From contig CALWXG010000010.1 of assembly GCA_944385435.1 (NCBI GenBank), positions 1 to 55,128 on the forward strand: 55,128 nt of DNA, written 5' to 3'. The translations under genes were made by a program, and so were the position numbers. The stretch comes from an uncultured Oscillospiraceae bacterium. GTDB taxonomy: Bacteria; Bacillota; Clostridia; Oscillospirales; Oscillospiraceae. The notes below the pieces were generated by a model, which was not told where the DNA came from, made no database searches, and saw only the letters and a list, made by a program, of their open reading frames with translations. Below are positions 2,693-48,678 of the stretch, piece after piece; position 1 is the first letter of the stretch, and the number at the start of each line of letters is the position of its first letter.

Positions 2693-4069
2693 TTGAAAAT
2701 CCATGTCACGGAAACCGTTCTGCGGGACGCAAACCAGTCCCTGATCGCCACGCGGATGCCCCTGAAGGATTTTGAGGGAATTCTGGACGTGATGGACCAG
2801 GCCGGGTACACCTCTCTGGAATGCTGGGGCGGAGCCACCTTTGACTCCTGCCTGCGCTATCTGGATGAGGATCCCTGGGAACGTCTGCGGACCATCCGCC
2901 GCCACGTGAAAAACACCAAGCTGCAGATGCTCCTGCGCGGGCAGAACATTCTGGGATACAAACACTACCCTGACGACATCGTCCGGAGATTTGTCCGCAA
3001 GTCGGTGGAAAACGGCATCGACGTCATCCGGATTTTTGACGCGCTGAACGATTTGCGCAATATTGAGGTGGCTGTGGACGAGGCCATCCGCGCCGGGGCC
3101 CAGGTCCAGGGCGCACTGTGCTATACCACCAGCCCGATCCACACGCTGGATACGTTTGTGGACCTGGGCCGGCAGCTGGAGAAAATGGGCTGCCACAGCG
3201 TCTGCATCAAGGACATGGCGGGCATCATGACGCCAAAAGTTGCCTATGACCTGGTCTCCGCCCTGAAGCAGAACATCAGGCTGCCCATCGTGGTGCACAC
3301 CCACTGCACCACCGGTCTTGGCCCCATGACCCTGCTCAAGGCGGCTGAGGCGGGCGCGGACACCATCGACTGCGCCATCTCCTGCTTCTCCGGCGGCACC
3401 TCCCAGCCGCCCACGGAATCCCTGCACTATGCGCTCAAGGAAATGGGGATCGACACCGGGCTGAAGGAGCCTGTCCTCAAACAGATCAACGACTACTTCA
3501 AGCCCATCCACGCCCGGGCGCTGGACAGTGGCCTGCTCAATCCCATCGTGATGAATACAGAGACCGATGCCCTGGTCTATCAGATCCCCGGCGGCATGCT
3601 CTCCAATCTGGTGGCCCAGCTGAAGGTACAGAACGCCCTGGACCGGCTGCCGGAGGTGCTGGAGGAGACGCCCCGGGTCCGGGAAGATCTGGGCTATCCC
3701 CCGCTGGTGACTCCGTCCAGTCAGATGGTGGGCGTCCAGGCAGTGGCCAACGTGCTGGCCGGCGAGCGGTACAAAAACGTCTCCAAGGAGATCAAGGCCT
3801 ATCTGCGGGGCGAATACGGCCGGGCGCCCGGGGCCGTCAATGAGGCGCTGCGCAAGCAGGTGCTGGGCGACGAGCCGGTGATCGAAGGGCGCTTTGCCGA
3901 TACGCTGGAGCCGGAGTACGAAAAGGTCCGGGCTGAGATCGGGGATCTGGCCCGCAGTGAAGAAGATGTCCTGTCCTATGCGCTGTTCCCGGTGGTGGCC
4001 GAAAAGTTCTTCCAGAACCGGCTGGAGAAGGAGAGCCACACCGTGACCTACTCCATCCGGAAGGCGTAG
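2693..4069 (+). CDS. oadA: Oxaloacetate decarboxylase-type carboxyltransferase, alpha subunit
   Basis: Cytoplasmic carboxyltransferase subunit of a membrane biotin-dependent decarboxylase; it moves CO2 from oxaloacetate (or a related acid) to the biotin of a carrier protein. The 458-residue product has the HMGL-like TIM-barrel with LRDANQSL near the N-terminus, the carboxylated-lysine region IKDMAGIMTP and metal-binding HTHCTTG, followed by the conserved PYC/OadA C-terminal domain. It ends without a biotinyl domain, which is encoded separately at 4424. Translation starts at a TTG at 2693, set by AAGGAG at 2678; no in-frame ATG precedes the catalytic motif. It is the first gene of a five-gene operon. 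Pyruvate carboxylase subunit B is the main alternative; the neighbouring beta subunit favours the sodium pump. Confidence 0.92.
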   Translation: MKIHVTETVLRDANQSLIATRMPLKDFEGILDVMDQAGYTSLECWGGATFDSCLRYLDEDPWERLRTIRRHVKNTKLQMLLRGQNILGYKHYPDDIVRRFVRKSVENGIDVIRIFDALNDLRNIEVAVDEAIRAGAQVQGALCYTTSPIHTLDTFVDLGRQLEKMGCHSVCIKDMAGIMTPKVAYDLVSALKQNIRLPIVVHTHCTTGLGPMTLLKAAEAGADTIDCAISCFSGGTSQPPTESLHYALKEMGIDTGLKEPVLKQINDYFKPIHARALDSGLLNPIVMNTETDALVYQIPGGMLSNLVAQLKVQNALDRLPEVLEETPRVREDLGYPPLVTPSSQMVGVQAVANVLAGERYKNVSKEIKAYLRGEYGRAPGAVNEALRKQVLGDEPVIEGRFADTLEPEYEKVRAEIGDLARSEEDVLSYALFPVVAEKFFQNRLEKESHTVTYSIRKA

Positions 4070-4079
4070 GTGATGCGGC

Positions 4080-4406
4080 ATGGATAGAAGTATTGCTGAA
4101 ACTCTGGGCTTGTCCGAAGTCGGCGTAATCCTTGTGCTGGTTGTGATCGCCATTGCCCTGGCTGTGATCACCCGCGTGGTGACCGCAAAGCGGAAGCAGG
4201 CAGAGCAGGCGCACAGCGCCCGGCCTGCACAGCCGGTTCCCGAACCTGCTCCGGCACAGCCCGCCGCTTCCGGGGCCCCCATCGTCGCTCAGTGCAGGCT
4301 GACCAATTGTGACGATGCCACCGCCGCGCTGATCATTGCCATTGTGGCGGACAGCCTGGGGGAGGAATTCAACGGCATGCAGGTCACATCCATCAAGCAA
4401 ATCTGA
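4080..4406 (+). CDS. oadG: OadG-like gamma subunit of the decarboxylase
   Basis: A 108-residue protein with one N-terminal membrane helix (about residues 14-34, VGVILVLVVIAIALAVI), a Pro/Ala-rich linker and a small C-terminal domain. This matches the gamma subunit that anchors the carboxyltransferase to the membrane beta subunit and stabilises the complex. It begins 10 nt after oadA and is followed by the biotin carrier. OadG proteins are poorly conserved, so the call depends on topology and operon position. Confidence 0.8.
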   Translation: MDRSIAETLGLSEVGVILVLVVIAIALAVITRVVTAKRKQAEQAHSARPAQPVPEPAPAQPAASGAPIVAQCRLTNCDDATAALIIAIVADSLGEEFNGMQVTSIKQI

Positions 4407-4423
4407 GGCCGGAGGAGATCAAT

Positions 4424-4861
4424 ATGAAATACATTGTGACATTGAACGGTAAAAACTATGAGGTGGAGGTGGACAAGGCGCAGGCGGTGCTGCTCAATGT
4501 AACCGATGCCCCTGCCCCCGCGGTCCAGCCCGCACCCTCCGCGCCGGCCCCCGCCCCCGCGGTCCAGCCCGCACCCTCCGCGCCGGCCCCCGCCCCTGCG
4601 GCTGCCCAGCCCGCTCCCGCTCCGGCCGCCCCGCAGGCGCATGTCGCCGGGGAAGAGATCAAGGCCCCCATGCCCGGCACCATTGTGGCGGTGAAAGTTG
4701 CCCCGGGCACTCCGGTGAAAAACGGGCAGGTCCTGGTGGTGCTGGAGGCCATGAAGATGGAAAATGAGATCGTGGCCCCCCATGATGCCACCGTGGCTCA
4801 GGTCCTGGTCTCCCAGGGCGCCAGTGTGGAATCCGGCGTGCCCCTGGTCATTCTCAACTGA
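4424..4861 (+). CDS. Biotin carrier protein of the decarboxylase
   Basis: A 145-residue biotinyl carrier. The C-terminal biotinyl/lipoyl domain (about residues 75-145) carries the attachment motif EAMKMEN with the biotinylated Lys. Residues 27-74 form a flexible Pro/Ala linker built from two near-identical 13-residue units plus a degenerate third (see the repeat at 4514). In many organisms this domain is fused to the alpha or gamma subunit; here it is free. AGGAG precedes the ATG at 4424. It shuttles the carboxyl group from OadA to OadB. Confidence 0.92.
   Translation: MKYIVTLNGKNYEVEVDKAQAVLLNVTDAPAPAVQPAPSAPAPAPAVQPAPSAPAPAPAAAQPAPAPAAPQAHVAGEEIKAPMPGTIVAVKVAPGTPVKNGQVLVVLEAMKMENEIVAPHDATVAQVLVSQGASVESGVPLVILN
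4514..4591 (+). repeat. 39-bp direct tandem repeat coding the biotin-carrier linker
   Basis: Two copies (4514-4552 and 4553-4591), each encoding 13 residues of the type APAPAVQPAPSAP. The in-frame unit allows linker-length change by slippage without a frameshift. Confidence 0.85.
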
Positions 4862-4894
4862 GACCGGCCATCTCGAGAAAGGGAGTGTAACACT

Positions 4895-6043
4895 TTGGAA
4901 TTCCTGCTTTCCGGACTTCTCGCCATCACATGGCAGCAGCTGATTATGTATGTCATCGGCGGAGTCCTGATCTATCTTGCCCTGAAAAAAGGGTTCGAAC
5001 CGGCCCTGCTCATGCCCATGGGGTTCGGCGCGATCCTGGTCAACCTGCCCTTTTCCGGCGTCCTGGATCAGACCCTGCAGGGCGGCATTGAGTCCAACGG
5101 CATCATTCAATGGCTGTTTGAGACCACCATTGAGGCCTCGGAAGCCCTGCCCATCCTGCTGTTCATCGGCATCGGAGCCATGATCGACTTCGGCCCCCTG
5201 CTGTCCAATCCCAAGATGATGGTCTTCGGCGCGGCCGCTCAGTTCGGCATCTTTTTCTCCCTGATGGTCGCCACCATGATGGGCTTTGACCTGCTGGATG
5301 CCGCCTCCATTGCCAGTGTGGCTGCTGCGGACGGCCCCACTGCCCTGCTGGTGTCCCAGATCTTCAAGTCCAAATATGTGGGCGCCATCGCCGTGGCCGC
5401 CTACTCCTACATGGCTCTGGTCCCCATTGTACAGCCTTTCGCCATCAAGCTGGTGACCACCAGGAAGGAGCGCCTGATCCGCATGCCCTACAACCCGCGG
5501 AACATCTCCAAGACCACCCGGATCCTCTTCCCCATCATCGTCACCATCATCGCCGGGCTCATCGCCCCCATGTCCGTCTCCCTGGTGGGCTTTCTCATGT
5601 TCGGCAATCTGCTGCGGGAGTGCGGGGTGCTCAACTCCCTGTCCCAGACCGCTCAGAATGAGTTTGCCAACATCATCACCCTGCTGCTGGGCCTGACCAT
5701 CTCCTTCTCCATGAAGGCGGAACAGTTTGTCAATCTGGAAACCATCCTCATCATGTGCCTGGGCCTGCTGGGCTTTGTGATGGATACCATCGGCGGCGTG
5801 CTGTGCGCCAAGATCATGAACCTGTTCCTCCCCCAGGGGAAGAAGATCAACCCCATGATCGGCGGGGCCGGCATCTCCGCGTTCCCCATGTCCGCCCGGG
5901 TGATCCAGAAGATGGCCCTGAAAGAGGACAACCAGAACCATCTGCTGATGCACGCCATCGGAGCCAATGTCTCAGGTCAGATCGGCTCCGTGCTGGCCGG
6001 CGGCATCCTGCTCAACCTCATCCCCGTACTGATCGGAGGGTAA
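4895..6043 (+). CDS. oadB: Sodium-translocating decarboxylase beta subunit
   Basis: Polytopic membrane subunit that decarboxylates carboxybiotin and exports Na+. The 382-residue product is hydrophobic throughout. It carries the family stretches GFGAILVNLPFSG, the conserved pore segment DGPTALLVSQ and the C-terminal GGAGISAFPMSARV, then NHLLMHAIGANVSGQIGS. Translation starts at TTG (4895) after AAAGGGAGTG, the second TTG start in this operon. Length is normal for the short OadB form. It follows the biotin carrier by 33 nt. Glutaconyl-CoA and methylmalonyl-CoA decarboxylase beta subunits are homologous, but the alpha subunit here is of the oxaloacetate type. Confidence 0.93.
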   Translation: MEFLLSGLLAITWQQLIMYVIGGVLIYLALKKGFEPALLMPMGFGAILVNLPFSGVLDQTLQGGIESNGIIQWLFETTIEASEALPILLFIGIGAMIDFGPLLSNPKMMVFGAAAQFGIFFSLMVATMMGFDLLDAASIASVAAADGPTALLVSQIFKSKYVGAIAVAAYSYMALVPIVQPFAIKLVTTRKERLIRMPYNPRNISKTTRILFPIIVTIIAGLIAPMSVSLVGFLMFGNLLRECGVLNSLSQTAQNEFANIITLLLGLTISFSMKAEQFVNLETILIMCLGLLGFVMDTIGGVLCAKIMNLFLPQGKKINPMIGGAGISAFPMSARVIQKMALKEDNQNHLLMHAIGANVSGQIGSVLAGGILLNLIPVLIGG

Positions 6044-6264: not shown

Positions 6265-7743
6265 TCACAGAATGATGCAAATCAGTCCGCCGGAGCCCTC
6301 GTTGATGATGCGCTCCAGCGTCTCCCGCAATTTTTCCCTGGCGTCCTCCGGCATCCGTTTGAGCTTGCTCTGCAGGTCCTCTCCCACCAGCTCGTGGAAG
6401 GACCGTCCGAAGATGTTGGAGTCCCAGATTTTCCCGGTGTCCCCCTCGAATTGCCGCAGCAGATAGTCCACCATCTCCTCCGACTGCTTTTCCGTCCCCA
6501 TGATGGGGGACAGCTCGGTCTTGATCTCCGCCTTCATCATGTGGATGGAGGGCGCCGCGGCCTTCAGGCGCACGCCATACCGTCCTCCCTGCTTGACAAT
6601 CTCCGGCTCTTCCAGCACCATCTCCTCCGGGTCCGGCATGACAATCCCATACCCGGAGGACTCCACCTGGGCCAGGGCCGCCTCCACCTTCTGATAGCTG
6701 CGCTTCATGGCGGCCAGCTGGGTCAGCTGGGCGATCAGGTCCCCGTCGTCCACAATGGTCAGCCCGCACTGCTCCGACACCGTGGTGTAGAACAGGCTGC
6801 GGGGCAATTCCAGTGTGGCGGTGACCACTCCGCTGCCCATGTCCATTTTATTGAGCGCAGCGGAGCTGACTTCCTCCCGTTCCGCCATGGCGCTCACCGC
6901 GTGTTCCGCATCCCGGATGCGCCGCAGGCCGGCGGTCTCCTCCCGGATCATGGCGTACAGGCCGCTCTTGATGGGGTGATCGAAGGGCAGCACATCCACC
7001 CAGGCCGGCAGGTAGAGATTCAGCTGCTTCATGGGGAATTCCCGCAGTACCCCGCGGATGATCTCGCTGACGCCGTTTTCATCCAGGGTCAGGCAGTTGA
7101 CCGCAAGGCAGGTGACGTTGTACCGCTCTGCCAGCTCGGCCCGGATCCCCTGTGCCCGTTCACTGTAGGGCTGGGCGCAGTTGAGCAGCACCACAAACGG
7201 TTTTCCCAGCTCCTTCAGCTCAGTGATGACCCGCTCCTCCGCCTCCAGGTAGTCCTCCCGGGGAATATCCGTCACGCTCCCGTCCGTGGTCACCACAATG
7301 CCGATGGTGGAGTGATCGGTGATCACCTTCCTGGTGCCGAATTCCGCCGCCTGGGTCATGGGAATCTCATGGTCAAACCACGGCGTGGTCACCATACGGG
7401 GCAATTCCCCGTCAAATTGACCCAGGGCGCTGGGCACCATATACCCCACGCAGTCAATCAACCGGACCGAGAAGGTACTGCCGTCCTCCATCGCCATGAC
7501 CACCGCGTCCTCCGGCACGAACTTCGGCTCCGCCGTCATCACCACCCGCCCGGACCCGCTCTGAGGCAGTTCATCCCTGGCCCGGTCCCTCACATAGGTA
7601 TTTTCAATCTTGGGCAGGACCAGGGTCTCCATGAACCGTTTGATAAACGTGGACTTCCCGGTCCGGACCGGTCCCACCACACCGATATAAATATCGCCCT
7701 GGGTCCGCTGCGCAATCTCCTCATACAGCCTGTGGTTTTCCAA
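6265..7743 (-). CDS. spoIVA: Stage IV sporulation protein A (coat morphogenetic ATPase)
   Basis: SpoIVA is an ATPase that polymerises on the outer forespore membrane to form the basement layer on which the spore coat assembles. The 492-residue product has the family length, an N-terminal Walker A (GVVGPVRTGKST, residues 22-33) and a C-terminus rich in hydrophobics ending GGLICIIL, as in the membrane-contacting C-terminus of the family. The start is a TTG at 7743 preceded by GAGGAGGT. It has its own sigma-E promoter (7775-7803) and lies downstream of sipL and spoVM, which encode its two direct partners. It converges on the oad terminator. Confidence 0.97.
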   Translation of the reverse strand: MENHRLYEEIAQRTQGDIYIGVVGPVRTGKSTFIKRFMETLVLPKIENTYVRDRARDELPQSGSGRVVMTAEPKFVPEDAVVMAMEDGSTFSVRLIDCVGYMVPSALGQFDGELPRMVTTPWFDHEIPMTQAAEFGTRKVITDHSTIGIVVTTDGSVTDIPREDYLEAEERVITELKELGKPFVVLLNCAQPYSERAQGIRAELAERYNVTCLAVNCLTLDENGVSEIIRGVLREFPMKQLNLYLPAWVDVLPFDHPIKSGLYAMIREETAGLRRIRDAEHAVSAMAEREEVSSAALNKMDMGSGVVTATLELPRSLFYTTVSEQCGLTIVDDGDLIAQLTQLAAMKRSYQKVEAALAQVESSGYGIVMPDPEEMVLEEPEIVKQGGRYGVRLKAAAPSIHMMKAEIKTELSPIMGTEKQSEEMVDYLLRQFEGDTGKIWDSNIFGRSFHELVGEDLQSKLKRMPEDAREKLRETLERIINEGSGGLICIIL

Positions 7744-7774
7744 AGCAACTACCTCCTCGCCCCTGTTTGTTCCA

Positions 7775-7803
7775 TGTGTATGGGGATAAGCTCTGGAATA
7801 TGA
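7775..7803 (-). promoter_or_regulatory. Sigma-E promoter of spoIVA
   Basis: On the minus strand TCATATT (7797-7803) and CATACACA (7775-7782) are separated by 14 nt, matching sigma-E consensus KMATATT-N14-CATACAHT in all but the last base. Transcription would start about 25 nt before the TTG start. Confidence 0.85.
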
Positions 7804-7839
7804 CAGGCTGTCTGCCCCTGCTCCCGCAATTTTACACAG

Positions 7840-7875
7840 GAAAAACTCCTGATGCGGGTTTGCCGCGTCAGGAGT
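7840..7875 (-). terminator. Terminator after sipL
   Basis: A 13-bp stem with one mismatch (7845-7857 with 7863-7875), followed on the minus strand by a U run (7841-7844). It isolates sipL from spoIVA. Confidence 0.75.
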
Positions 7876-45612: not shown

Positions 45613-45639
45613 CCCCGAAATTCCGGCAATTGCCCCGTA
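45613..45639 (+). promoter_or_regulatory. Sigma-I-type promoter element before sigI
   Basis: CCCC (45613-45616) and CGTA (45636-45639) are separated by 19 nt, with TTC following the -10. The same spacing recurs at 47357 and 47449. Sigma-I promoters in Bacillus and Clostridium have C-rich -35 and CGAA/CGTA -10 elements. This implies autoregulation. Confidence 0.65.
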
Positions 45640-45671: not shown

Positions 45672-46409
45672 ATGGTACAGACAGATCATGATATCGTCCG
45701 GCAGGTCTACGCCGCTAAGACGGATACCGATGCCGCGGATGATCTGATCCGCCAGTACATGGGGTTTATCCGCAGTGAAACCATCAAATTCATTCACACC
45801 GCACCGGAAAACGGGCACGAGGACGAGCTGAGCATCGCCATGCTGGCATTCTATGAGTGCATTCTGAATTATGAGAAGGGCCGGGGAGCCTTTCTTCCCT
45901 ATGCGGCCCGGGCCATCAAAAACCGTCTCATTGACTATTACCGCACCGAGCGCCGGCATGGAACGGTGATCTCCCTGCACACTCCGGTGGACGAGGAGGA
46001 GGGCCGCACCCTGCTGGACACGCTTCCGGATACCCGGGATGAGATCGAGCGCCTGGAAACCAGGCAGGCCAGTCAGCAGGAAATTGCAGAATTCGGCAGT
46101 CAGCTGGCGCGTTTTGGCATCTCCTTTTCCGATGTGGCGGACAACTGTCCCCGACAGGACCGGACCCTGTCGGCCTGCCGGCGGGTGCTGGACTTTGCCA
46201 GAACCCGTCCAGACCTGCTTCAGCAGGTGGAGCGCACTGGAAAACTCCCGATGGCAGAACTCTCCGCAGGCTCCGGAACTGACCGAAAAACCATGGAGCG
46301 GCACCGGAAATACCTCGTGGCCATTCTCCTGGCCTTTACCAATGGTTATGAGATCATCCGAGGACATCTGTACCGTCTCTCCCCGGCGAAAGGAGGCCAA
46401 CGGCAGTGA
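45672..46409 (+). CDS. sigI: Alternative sigma factor SigI
   Basis: A 245-residue sigma-70-family factor of the SigI group, which in Bacillus responds to heat and wall stress and in cellulolytic clostridia to extracellular polysaccharides. Visible are the region-2 segment AMLAFYECILNYEKGRGAF with RAIKNRLIDYYR, and a C-terminal helix-turn-helix-like segment GTDRKTMERHRKYLVAILLA. It is close to the Bacillus length of 251. The ATG at 45672 follows GGAGGGATCC; the open frame upstream to 45525 has no similarity. Its stop overlaps the rsgI start (GTGA), so the two are coupled. Confidence 0.92.
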   Translation: MVQTDHDIVRQVYAAKTDTDAADDLIRQYMGFIRSETIKFIHTAPENGHEDELSIAMLAFYECILNYEKGRGAFLPYAARAIKNRLIDYYRTERRHGTVISLHTPVDEEEGRTLLDTLPDTRDEIERLETRQASQQEIAEFGSQLARFGISFSDVADNCPRQDRTLSACRRVLDFARTRPDLLQQVERTGKLPMAELSAGSGTDRKTMERHRKYLVAILLAFTNGYEIIRGHLYRLSPAKGGQRQ

Positions 46410-47320
46410 ACTATCTTGTGATGGAAACGCACCCCGCTTATGCGGTGGTGCTGGATGAAGAGGGCCGCTTTCTCAAGGCCGCAAACCTCCGTTATCACGT
46501 AGGCGACACCATAGAACACATCGTGCCGCTGCGTCAGCCCGTACAGAAAAATACCCTTTGGATGAAATCGCTGGCCGGGGTCGCTGGTCTGGCCGCCTGC
46601 CTCTGCCTGGTTTTCTTCGGGTACTATCAGCCCAATTTCCTTCCCTACGGTACACTGCGCATCCAGATCAACCCCGACGTGGAGCTTACCGTCAGCAAAA
46701 CGGACCGGGTCCTGGATCTGGAGGGACTGAATGACGATGGCATGGAGCTCATTCAGGGCTATGACTATCACGGCAAGGACAGGGACACTGCCGCCGATGA
46801 TCTGATGGAACGGGCCATTGATATGGGCTTCCTCTCGGACGGTGATACCGTCTCCATTACGGTCACCAGTTCTGACCTGGATTGGCAAGTCCGGGAGGAG
46901 ACGGAGCTGCGTCAGCACCTGGAAGAGCGGTACGGAGACACAGTTGTCATCCGGCTGGGCGGAGATGACATCCAGCCCGCTCCCAGCGATGAGATTGAAA
47001 TTGTGATCCCCGTTGTCACACCCGCCCCTGAGACCGCGCCGCCTGCCTCGCCTGCTCCCCCAACCACTCCGCCTACCGTCCTCCCCACTGAGCCGGTCAT
47101 CCCATCCACTGAACCGGATGATGATGACGATGATGATGACGATGACGATGATGATGATGATGACGATAATGACTGGGGCGACGATGATTGGAATAATGAT
47201 GACTGGGATGACGATGGTCCCTACGATGACGATTGGGACGATGACGACGACGGCGATGACCGGTATGACGATGACCGGGACGATGACGACTGGGATGACG
47301 ACGACTGGGACGATGACTGA
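46406..47320 (+). CDS. rsgI: Anti-sigma-I factor RsgI with Asp/Trp-rich surface tail
   Basis: A 304-residue membrane anti-sigma factor. Residues 1-48 are the cytoplasmic RsgI_N domain (AYAVVLDEEGRFLKA). A membrane helix lies near residues 53-72. Residues about 80-155 form the extracytoplasmic RsgI domain (INPDVELTV to GFLSDGDTVSI). A Pro/Thr-rich linker follows, then from residue 238 to the end an extreme acidic tail: 17 consecutive Asp and then Asp/Trp motifs such as GPYDDDWDDDD. In other clostridia this position carries ligand-binding modules, so the tail is probably the sensory part. The start is GTG 46406 after AAAGGAGG. Base composition of the tail is repetitive GAT/GAC. Confidence 0.9.
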   Translation: MNYLVMETHPAYAVVLDEEGRFLKAANLRYHVGDTIEHIVPLRQPVQKNTLWMKSLAGVAGLAACLCLVFFGYYQPNFLPYGTLRIQINPDVELTVSKTDRVLDLEGLNDDGMELIQGYDYHGKDRDTAADDLMERAIDMGFLSDGDTVSITVTSSDLDWQVREETELRQHLEERYGDTVVIRLGGDDIQPAPSDEIEIVIPVVTPAPETAPPASPAPPTTPPTVLPTEPVIPSTEPDDDDDDDDDDDDDDDDDNDWGDDDWNNDDWDDDGPYDDDWDDDDDGDDRYDDDRDDDDWDDDDWDDD

Positions 47321-47323
47321 CCG

Positions 47324-47350
47324 AACATCATTTTATGTTGAAAAATGATG
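47324..47350 (+). terminator. Hairpin after rsgI
   Basis: A 10-bp A/T-rich inverted repeat (ACATCATTTT with AAAATGATGT) starting 4 nt after the rsgI stop. There is no following U run, so its role may be mRNA 3' protection rather than termination. Confidence 0.45.
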
Positions 47351-47356
47351 TCTCTA

Positions 47357-47383
47357 CCCCGATTTCCGCTGGACTGCCGCGTA
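47357..47383 (+). promoter_or_regulatory. Sigma-I-type promoter element, distal to the lipoprotein gene
   Basis: CCCC (47357-47360), 19 nt, CGTA (47380-47383), followed by TTCTCC. Same spacing as at 45613 and 47449. Confidence 0.6.
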
Positions 47384-47448
47384 TTCTCCCTGTGACAGTG
47401 GAAGAAAACCATTGCCCAGGAAAAAAGAAAAAATTTTTTATGAGTTGA

Positions 47449-47475
47449 CCCCGGTTTCCATCCGGCTGGACCGTA
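47449..47475 (+). promoter_or_regulatory. Sigma-I-type promoter element, proximal to the lipoprotein gene
   Basis: CCCC (47449-47452), 19 nt, CGTA (47472-47475), followed by TCCTTCC. The start would give a leader of about 60 nt to ATG 47542. Confidence 0.65.
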
Positions 47476-47541
47476 TCCTTCCATCGTAAAGCACAGAACA
47501 CAAAAAATAAAACAAAGCAAATCTGATAGGAGATGAACGAC

Positions 47542-48678
47542 ATGAAAAAGAACCGGAAAATGAATCTGTTTGGACTGGCTCTCACCGCCGTCCTCTCCCT
47601 TTCCCTGCTGGCCTCCTGCGGAACTGAAAGCAGCACTCCCCCCGCTCAAAGCGCTCCGCCCTCCTCTCCGCCCGTTGCGGAGAACACAAGCAACGACTCC
47701 GCCGTAGGCAGCGTGCTGCTGTGCGTCAACCCGGAAATCGAGATGTCCTACGACGACAGAGGCAACGTGGTGGAACTCAACGCCCTGAATCCCGACGGCC
47801 AGACCGTACTCAGCGGCTACACCGGATATCAGGGTAATTCCTGTATGACCGTCATCGGCGAGCTGGTGGGCCGGATCAACGACAATGGCTACTTCGATGC
47901 CACCATTGACGGACACGAAAAGAACATCGTGCTGAAGATGGCCCGGGGTTCTGTATACCCCAGCGAGCAGTTCCTCAATGAACTGGCCCAGGCGGTCCGG
48001 ACCGCGGTGGAGGCCGATCAGATCGGCTCCCGTGCCGTCCCTCTGGATCAGGATGACTATGACGATGTCTACGGCGAAAAAGGGTACATCAACGCGCAGG
48101 CCGCTCAGGGTCTGCTTTCCGCCCAGTTGGAGCGGGATGACCTGCAGTTCGTAGAAAAAGAGTATGATCTTGATGACGGAGAATACGAAGTGGAGTTCGT
48201 CATGGACGGTGTGGAGTATGAGTATGAAGTAAATGCTTACACCGGGAAGATCACCGAGATGGAGATGGAGCACCCGGACGACGATCTTTACGGAGACGAC
48301 CGGTACGATGATGACTGGGACGACCGGTATGACGATGACTGGGATGACGACGACGGCCCCTACGATGACGATTGGGACGACGACGATGATGACTGGTACG
48401 ACGATCCCACCGGAGATGACTACTGGGATGATGACGACGACGGCCCCTATGATGACGATTGGGACGACGATGATGACTGGTACGATGACCCCACCGGGGA
48501 TGATTACTGGGATGATGACGACGACGACGGCGACGACCGGTACGACTATGACTGGGATGACCGGTATGACGATGACTGGGATGACGATGACTGGGATGAC
48601 GATGACTGGGATGACGATGACTGGGATGACGATGACTGGGATGACGACGACTGGGACGATGACGACTGGGATGACTGA
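47542..48678 (+). CDS. Lipoprotein with RsgI-type domain, PepSY domain and Asp/Trp repeat tail
   Basis: A 378-residue secreted lipoprotein. The signal peptide has a lipobox LLASC (Cys near residue 29). A Pro/Ser linker leads to a domain at about residues 55-165 that repeats the RsgI extracytoplasmic pattern (VNPEIEMS, ALNPDGQTVLSGY, INDNGYFDATID). A PepSY-like domain follows (about 178-243, GYINAQAAQGLLSAQL to YEYEVNAYTGKI). From residue 246 to 378 the chain is Asp/Trp/Tyr repeats, including two 28-29-residue units and seven WDDDD units. AGGAG sets ATG 47542; ATG 47533 is the alternative. Two sigma-I-type elements precede it. It has no described function; it may present or buffer the ligand sensed by RsgI. 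Confidence 0.85.
   Translation: MKKNRKMNLFGLALTAVLSLSLLASCGTESSTPPAQSAPPSSPPVAENTSNDSAVGSVLLCVNPEIEMSYDDRGNVVELNALNPDGQTVLSGYTGYQGNSCMTVIGELVGRINDNGYFDATIDGHEKNIVLKMARGSVYPSEQFLNELAQAVRTAVEADQIGSRAVPLDQDDYDDVYGEKGYINAQAAQGLLSAQLERDDLQFVEKEYDLDDGEYEVEFVMDGVEYEYEVNAYTGKITEMEMEHPDDDLYGDDRYDDDWDDRYDDDWDDDDGPYDDDWDDDDDDWYDDPTGDDYWDDDDDGPYDDDWDDDDDWYDDPTGDDYWDDDDDDGDDRYDYDWDDRYDDDWDDDDWDDDDWDDDDWDDDDWDDDDWDDDDWDD
48355..48525 (+). repeat. 87/84-bp tandem duplication in the lipoprotein tail
   Basis: Two near-identical units begin at 48355 and 48442, each encoding GPYDDDW, WYDDPTGDDYW and acidic runs. They differ by one Asp codon and a few silent changes. Confidence 0.8.
48577..48675 (+). repeat. 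15-bp tandem repeat coding WDDDD units
   Basis: TGG codons occur exactly every 15 nt at 48577, 48592, 48607, 48622, 48637, 48652 and 48667. The intervening codons are GAT/GAC, nearly identical in each unit. The in-frame unit allows length change without a frameshift. Confidence 0.92.

Follow-up and report, generated by a model that had tools for sequence, protein, structure and literature searches.

Organization of the sigI–rsgI–lipoprotein locus

The window, meaning the whole 55,128 nt stretch of an uncultured Oscillospiraceae genome that was analysed, carries three consecutive genes on the + strand: sigI, encoding a sigma factor of the SigI kind (45672..46409); rsgI, encoding a membrane anti-sigma factor of 304 aa (46406..47320); and a gene for a lipoprotein with a SEAL-type domain and a PepSY domain (47542..48678). 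The rsgI gene has a GTG start and overlaps sigI by 4 nt. The open frame of the lipoprotein gene spans 47533–48678, the ATG at 47542 being better placed since it follows AGGAG. SigI-type promoter sequences of the form CCCC-N19-CGTA occur once 5′ of sigI (45613..45639, ending 32 nt 5′ of the sigI ATG) and twice 5′ of the lipoprotein gene, as a distal (47357..47383) and a proximal copy (47449..47475), all on the + strand. A first-pass annotation had proposed these genes, their coordinates and an extracytoplasmic domain common to RsgI and the lipoprotein; the coordinates are correct, and the common domain is borne out by the Pfam RsgI_M and Foldseek matches given below.

SigI, which adjoins rsgI, matches Sigma70_r2 (3.7e-8, protein domain scan) and the NCBIfam SigI models, the best at 7e-44 over residues 8–232 and the others more weakly; the best score is 150 bits, against clade-specific equivalog/subfamily cut-offs of 185–498. 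In RsgI the RsgI_N match is borderline: it scores 25.2 bits in the genome scan, where the cut-off is 25, and 21.3 bits when the protein read from the GTG is scanned. It is the single Pfam RsgI_N match in the window genome. A membrane helix is predicted at residues 53–73, followed by the extracytoplasmic SEAL-type domain (46646..46933; Pfam RsgI_M PF23750, E 1.1e-21). The RsgI model superimposes on the solved chain 8t9n_B with a TM-score of 0.85 of the target, and the solved RsgI chains 8hep_B and 8u9o_B align with RsgI starting at the P of N89-P90, the predicted self-cleavage site (46670–46675). No folded C-terminal carbohydrate-binding or enzyme module was found in RsgI, there being no Pfam match past residue 176 at E up to 1. 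From residue 185 on, the model has no secondary structure and a predicted confidence (pLDDT) of ~50–66, as in a disordered region of the Bacillus subtilis kind. On these models, the window pair is a SigI–RsgI pair of the disordered-tail kind.

The lipoprotein has a lipobox (LASC, Cys at 47617–47619, invariant in the first five sequences aligned), and its Pfam content is otherwise restricted to RsgI_M and PepSY. Its RsgI_M (SEAL-type) domain (47725..48021, E 2.1e-14) is the same domain as that of RsgI and contains N66-P67, a self-cleavage site predicted from the homology of the domain (47728–47733). The PepSY domain (48151..48264) matches PF03413 at 2.1e-8 and, by sequence, the solved PepSY protein 9vy3 at 1.5e-6. 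RsgI_N is absent from the lipoprotein in the Pfam protein scan; the protein has the ectodomain in common with RsgI, yet it is not an RsgI. For both predicted ectodomains the best solved Foldseek match is the B. subtilis RsgI ectodomain 8t9n (E 4.4e-7 for RsgI, 2.9e-6 for the lipoprotein).

Both proteins end in an acidic tail, and the lengths given in the first-pass annotation, 67 and 133 residues, are exact by residue count. The RsgI tail (47117..47317) contains 50 D, 6 W and 2 Y and is predicted to be without secondary structure; the lipoprotein tail (48277..48675) contains 88 D, 16 W and 12 Y, with secondary structure predicted for its four starting residues only. The last 104 residues of RsgI carry a net charge of −51, and the final 135 of the lipoprotein one of −84. 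Of seven matches to a DNA pattern for WDDD(D)W in the 2.87 Mb genome, six fall in the lipoprotein tail and the other in the RsgI tail (backward control, one match).

Conservation of the three-gene unit

An alignment of five lipoprotein cores, searched against 84,980 species genomes, returned 76 loci, or 77 with the window. By database names the hosts are Oscillospiraceae, Lachnospiraceae and other Clostridia, many of them from chickens (chicken guts). The sigI–rsgI–lipoprotein triad is complete and co-directional in 72 of the 77 loci, window included; of the remaining five, L055, L079, L085 and L101 lie near contig ends and L068 has other genes in the 2.5 kb upstream. The N-P motif is present in both RsgI and the lipoprotein in all 72 triads (by eye for the RsgI of L062). 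When the search started from RsgI, the window genome and 4 of 59 relatives yielded strong matches, five in all, with the lipoprotein adjoining in 5/5. SigI, RsgI and the SEAL-PepSY lipoprotein are therefore a conserved three-gene unit.

Lipoproteins of this kind are also seen in other settings. In Merdimmobilis hominis (L148, 1764–3101) a lipoprotein gene stands alone behind a SigI-type promoter; its product has RsgI_M and three PepSY domains but lacks an acidic tail. The gene adjoins an apparent serine recombinase, and is possibly on a mobile element. In L067 a second small lipoprotein, PepSY-like in appearance, follows the Asp/Trp-tailed one (7116–7847).

SigI-type promoters and extent of the regulon

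In the Bacillales SigI consensus, ACCCCC--AA 15(N) CGAA, the C run and the CGWA box are likewise 19 bases apart (PMC4711584). The window sites have the C run, an AT tract, the CGWA box, the SigI spacing and sense orientation, as would be expected of members of a SigI regulon. Among the 72 triads, 69 have a readable sigI upstream region, counted from protein-anchored starts (three loci are without an anchor). The loose form CCCC-N18-20-CGWA is found 5′ of the lipoprotein gene in 71/72 and 5′ of sigI in 67/69, and the near-strict form CCCC[GA]NWWWN14CGWA in 60/72 and 61/69, respectively. The form CCC-N18-23-CGWA is enriched over shuffled sequence at the lipoprotein gene (70 vs a mean of 18.2, maximum 27) and at sigI (45 vs 12.3, maximum 21), whereas the published Clostridium thermocellum consensus AAA-N13-14-CGWA is not (lipoprotein 5 vs 15.2, sigI 10/72 vs 7.2); the sigI values for both forms are under-counts, as misplaced sigI starts were used. 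A SigI-type promoter is also present at L068, L148 and L151, solitary lipoprotein genes for which the stretch examined contains no sigI. As far as can be read from sequence, the earlier proposal that the partner is made by the same regulon thus holds for the window and for nearly all relatives; the three promoters at lipoprotein genes apart from sigI are consistent with it.

Beyond the triad no excess of such sites is evident. The strict form CCCCGNWWWN14CGTA has three matches in the 2.87 Mb window genome, all at the triad (backward control, four). A looser pattern, tried as a route to further SigI targets in this genome, gave 7 matches vs 11 for its control, with CGTA only at the three triad sites, and was rejected. 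In four relatives 7/8 strict matches are at the triad (G019 3/4, G021 1/1, G006 1/1, G053 2/2), the extra match in G019 (L134) lying inside an open frame of the opposite strand. Thirty further genomes (81.9 Mb) hold 98 strict matches, 58 at triads and 40 elsewhere, with 38 for the backward control. Three non-triad matches were inspected; one precedes the solitary lipoprotein of L148, and L149 and L150 show nothing of the kind. Since strict sites outside triads stay at the control level in the 30 genomes, SigI appears to control little else, within the reach of a motif built from these loci.

Promoter number before the lipoprotein gene varies. In L155 (minus strand, ~4835–5165) three near-identical SigI-type promoters lie ~110 bases apart before the lipoprotein gene; the window has two.

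Composition and variation of the acidic tails

Tails were compared in 47 non-redundant triads, after four of the 72 were dropped for tails shorter than 40 residues and 21 for core identity of at least 90 %. All 47 RsgI tails are net negative, as are all the lipoprotein tails save that of L072, which is cut by a contig end. The first-pass annotation had said that its proposal would be refuted if most close relatives had random tails or none, which is not what was found. The sequence of the tails is far more variable. The commonest unit is a 15-mer repeat, DTDYGPNNDGVTDY, which is present in the lipoprotein of 37/47 triads and in the RsgI of 21/47, and never in RsgI alone. At least two W are found in both tails at only 3/47 loci, so the WDDDD unit is lineage-specific rather than a family trait, and its candidacy as a conserved ligand motif was rejected. 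The earlier suggestion that the tail is a new sensor type is weakened accordingly, most relatives having the 15-mer in the lipoprotein instead; the window Asp/Trp unit is one version of a variable acidic tail.

Tails of the same genome nevertheless resemble each other. The 3-mer overlap of RsgI and lipoprotein tails is 0.397 within a genome vs 0.262 between genomes, a within-genome mean reached in 0/5000 permutations, in which common descent remains included. The RsgI tail is closer to that of its own lipoprotein than to that of the nearest relative's in 32/47. Codon identity at peptides common to both window tails is 0.49 vs 0.54 expected; across the 27 loci with enough common peptide the mean is 0.55 vs 0.52 expected, with 18/27 slightly above. 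Given codon identity near expectation, the likeness seems to be kept at the protein level, and recent DNA exchange was rejected as its source. As a separate observation, the tail of a metagenomic lipoprotein (P0055) resembles, on visual inspection, that of RsgI in L051, which may reflect recombination or misassembly.

Association of tail type with the VTC–DUF4956–CotH module

Near the lipoprotein gene are genes for CotH (PF08757) at 54/77 loci, VTC (PF09359) at 51 and DUF4956 at 50, many other loci being cut by contig ends. The module is downstream of the lipoprotein gene, except in three Eisenbergiella loci in which CotH precedes it. VTC is presumably a poly-phosphate polymerase family. CotH has been named a spore-coat protein kinase and placed with a poly-phosphate polymerase and DUF4956 (PMC7112168). 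In most relatives the module probably adds phosphate to the T/S/Y-containing tails.

Tail type was counted against CotH in the 53 loci that have 3.6 kb downstream and a readable tail, which include close relatives of one another; of the 24 set aside, eight show CotH. CotH follows all 45 loci with the 15-mer (VTC in 41) and the single locus with a TNY/SGY tail. It was found downstream in 0/7 of the others, namely six with Asp-rich tails (the window, L063, L064, L067, L070 and L112) and the tail-less L073. Genome-wide searches found no CotH in the window genome or in those of L061, L064, L066, L070, L072, L073, L087, L110 and L116, nor in G006 and G021 apart from matches to the repeat-like end of the query. 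That end, the last part of the cotH frame of L046 (10010–10420), has many short matches across G006, G019 and G021, some with stops, like a dispersed repeat, and no such matches in the window genome. VTC was not found in the window genome; among the genomes searched that have Asp tails or are doubtful, a VTC-type gene is present in those of L067, L073 and L054.

The genome of L067 is a special case, as its triad has an Asp/Trp tail, yet CotH is present. CotH there lies behind a second lipoprotein gene (L151) with a SigI-type promoter of its own, which encodes a 15-mer tail and stands directly before VTC–DUF4956–CotH. The record is an uncultured-bacterium bin, in which mixing is possible.

A reverse search from CotH matched 32 of 245 genomes of the order at 33 places; 20 of these were examined and two more were already in the locus set. 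Ten loci belong to the close CotH subfamily, five of them apparently from genomes already in the set: seven are complete sigI–rsgI–lipoprotein–VTC–DUF4956–CotH, two have the 15-mer but reach the end of the contig, and in one the contig starts at CotH. The ten loci of the distant subfamily have VTC–DUF4956–CotH with no sigI–rsgI–lipoprotein or repeat in the stretch examined (in one, only 0.5 kb before VTC). In a quick tree of 71 triads (L075 left out), tail type needs five changes, two of them on well-supported branches; independent pairs agree in 1.7 of 2 and are never opposite, too few for a significant result (sign test p 0.5). A charge-supplying role for CotH would accord with the CotH kinase literature and with the mostly Asp tails of lineages lacking the cassette.

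RsgI as a putative mimic of the lipoprotein

The periplasmic domain of RsgI cuts itself (PMC12203970), and the parts stay together until their separation lets a site-2 protease act (PMC10202637). Against this background it is quite possible, though somewhat short of probable, that RsgI is a built-in structural mimic of the lipoprotein that reports when the lipoprotein tail is pulled off, occupied or missing, with the freed SigI leading to more lipoprotein. By analogy with studied RsgI proteins, both SEAL domains would self-cut at N-P and their halves would stay joined until release of the C-terminal part. For RsgI, that step would allow RseP/RasP to cut the membrane helix and SigI to be freed; at the same joint in the lipoprotein, the PepSY-tail part would leave the lipid anchor. 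Whatever loosens or saturates the lipoprotein tail would do likewise to RsgI, so that SigI would be freed and the lipoprotein replaced. In most relatives the same promoter would also drive the whole of lipoprotein–VTC–DUF4956–CotH, whereas in the window lineage the module would have been lost and the negative charge encoded as aspartate in the protein. The outcome would be negative feedback replenishing an anionic surface lipoprotein, a scheme in which the feedback, the ligand, the phosphorylation and the self-cutting of the lipoprotein are all postulated. SigI has no recognisable targets apart from its own operon and the lipoprotein gene, so the loop could be a homeostat for surface polyanion.

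Several observations weigh against this. A homeostat would require feedback from lipoprotein to RsgI, for which the argument is the likeness of the two proteins. The match of the tails is partial, the 15-mer being in far more lipoproteins than RsgI proteins; 15/47 RsgI tails are not closer to their own partner, and the permutation is without correction for descent. The RsgI tails of L072 and L073 are Asp-rich with no matching lipoprotein tail seen, the lipoprotein of L073 having three PepSY repeats and then ending with DFDD, and that of L072 being cut by its contig end. Two genomes with the 15-mer, L054 and L078, are without a CotH match, and a VTC-type gene is present in the genomes of L054 and L073. 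By count the link between tail and CotH is strong, but with few independent changes it is weak as independent evidence. The 76 loci were gathered with the lipoprotein as query, which makes its presence in them a product of the design. Because the promoter motif comes from that set of loci, it would miss targets with other sequence, and its loose form also occurs inside sigI (10/72) and inside rsgI (10/72), with 0/72 inside the lipoprotein gene.

A fairly unlikely alternative is that both tails bind the same soluble ligand, either Ca2+/Mg2+ or cationic antimicrobial peptides, with RsgI sensing it and the abundant lipoprotein mopping it up and so ending the signal. The tails are strongly anionic and, within a genome, tend to be alike; of the predicted SigI outputs the lipoprotein is the main one, and the N-x-D-G-x-x-D spacing of the 15-mer presumably resembles calcium loops. 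However, binding to a free tail alone would not pull a SEAL domain apart, and tail sequences vary greatly among relatives, unlike a specific binding site.

It is more doubtful still that the two proteins form a wall-gap pair, in which generic disordered tails thread peptidoglycan defects, RsgI sensing them and the lipoprotein patching them, with composition hardly mattering. Both window tails are predicted to be disordered, and in B. subtilis disordered regions are exchangeable, with PBP1 carrying one too. The disordered region of B. subtilis RsgI has been postulated to be a sensor of wall integrity (PMC10128001, PMC10202637). Tails blind to composition, however, would be expected neither to resemble each other within a genome nor to vary with the CotH module.

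Direct antagonism, whereby the SEAL fragment or tail of the lipoprotein binds RsgI by strand exchange or tail–tail contact and either keeps it closed as a feedback inhibitor or prises it open as a co-receptor, is improbable. Such contact would suit two proteins of one fold whose tails match and whose first strand and N-P turn are similar, but two strongly acidic tails should repel each other unless bridged. Finally, tails without a specific role, grown by slippage of GAY and TGG repeats, can be all but set aside: runs of Asp codons are DNA of low complexity and the number of repeats differs freely among relatives, but an acidic RsgI tail is kept in all 47 non-redundant triads, common codons do not explain the likeness of the tails, and tail type is linked to CotH.

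RsgI as a mimic of its product can also be framed more broadly: a sigma factor would serve a single product, its anti-sigma factor copying the outer half of that product, so that the cell would measure its surface polyanion with a sacrificial look-alike, and the charge would be exchangeable, supplied either as phosphates placed on DTDYGPNNDGVTDY tails by a CotH kinase that draws on the VTC–DUF4956 phosphate polymer system or, where the kinase has been lost as in the window lineage, as aspartate, with an extracytoplasmic function (ECF) sigma factor locus on contig C8 of the window genome as a second use of the design. This wider version is rather unlikely.

The contig C8 locus came to light in an RsgI search of the window genome, which pointed to three places: rsgI, the lipoprotein gene and an anti-sigma factor gene beside an ECF-type sigma factor gene. 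In L004 (G000:C8:48000-56000) the ECF-type sigma factor (2919–3419; Sigma70_r4_2, 7.7e-15) is followed by an anti-sigma factor of the RsgI_M kind (3442–4666; 1e-27). The anti-sigma factor has a His/Gly-rich tail, and the pair comes right after a secreted protein that bears DADGDGVCD repeats and likewise ends rich in His/Gly. In the relatives G001, G006, G010, G020, G021 and G035 an anti-sigma factor likewise has a DxDGVCD-repeat protein nearby, both with Gly-rich tails containing His, Asn or Arg (by eye). The contig C8 locus is possibly a second sensor–product pair with matched tails.

Relation to known SigI–RsgI systems and significance

The B. subtilis SigI–RsgI system resembles that of the window in the sigI–rsgI pair, the RsgI_M fold (8t9n), the disordered C-terminal region and the 19 nt promoter spacing. 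B. subtilis SigI upregulates mreBH and lytE (PMC10128001), whereas for the window SigI no target is recognisable beyond sigI–rsgI and a lipoprotein that copies the ectodomain. C. thermocellum also has SigI/RsgI pairs with a self-cleaving periplasmic domain (PMC12203970), self-cleavage being a prediction in the window. There it is mostly a folded carbohydrate-binding or enzyme module that senses, and many genes are controlled (PMC12203970, PMC4711584); the window has instead a disordered tail of acidic residues and a single partner gene or operon.

The CotH, poly-phosphate polymerase and DUF4956 cassettes described next to pel clusters (PMC7112168) are comparable to those of the window's relatives, which have CotH, DUF4956 and, in the place of the polymerase, VTC. 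Unlike the pel-type cassettes, the SigI-linked cassette starts with a tailed lipoprotein, and the window itself is without the cassette. The literature search found CotH with DUF4956 in this one paper. It found no paper joining PepSY with RsgI, the primary papers on the SEAL domain and RsgI autoproteolysis being outside its reach.

The tail had been put forward as a new type of sensor, a claim that loses force given that a disordered extracytoplasmic RsgI sensor had already been postulated in B. subtilis (PMC10128001, PMC10202637). What appears new is the pairing of RsgI with a look-alike lipoprotein, a regulon that is nearly closed, and the link between tail type and CotH.

As far as the literature search reached, the role of SigI–RsgI in these Clostridia is apparently undescribed. 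The system now gains a small regulon and a named output, the SEAL-PepSY lipoprotein and, in its kin, the VTC–DUF4956–CotH cassette, together with a possible design rule in which the sensor would be a structural mimic of the product. The findings also suggest that a CotH kinase may act outside the spore coat, with a repeat tail as its substrate, and suggest a function for one branch of VTC–DUF4956–CotH cassettes.

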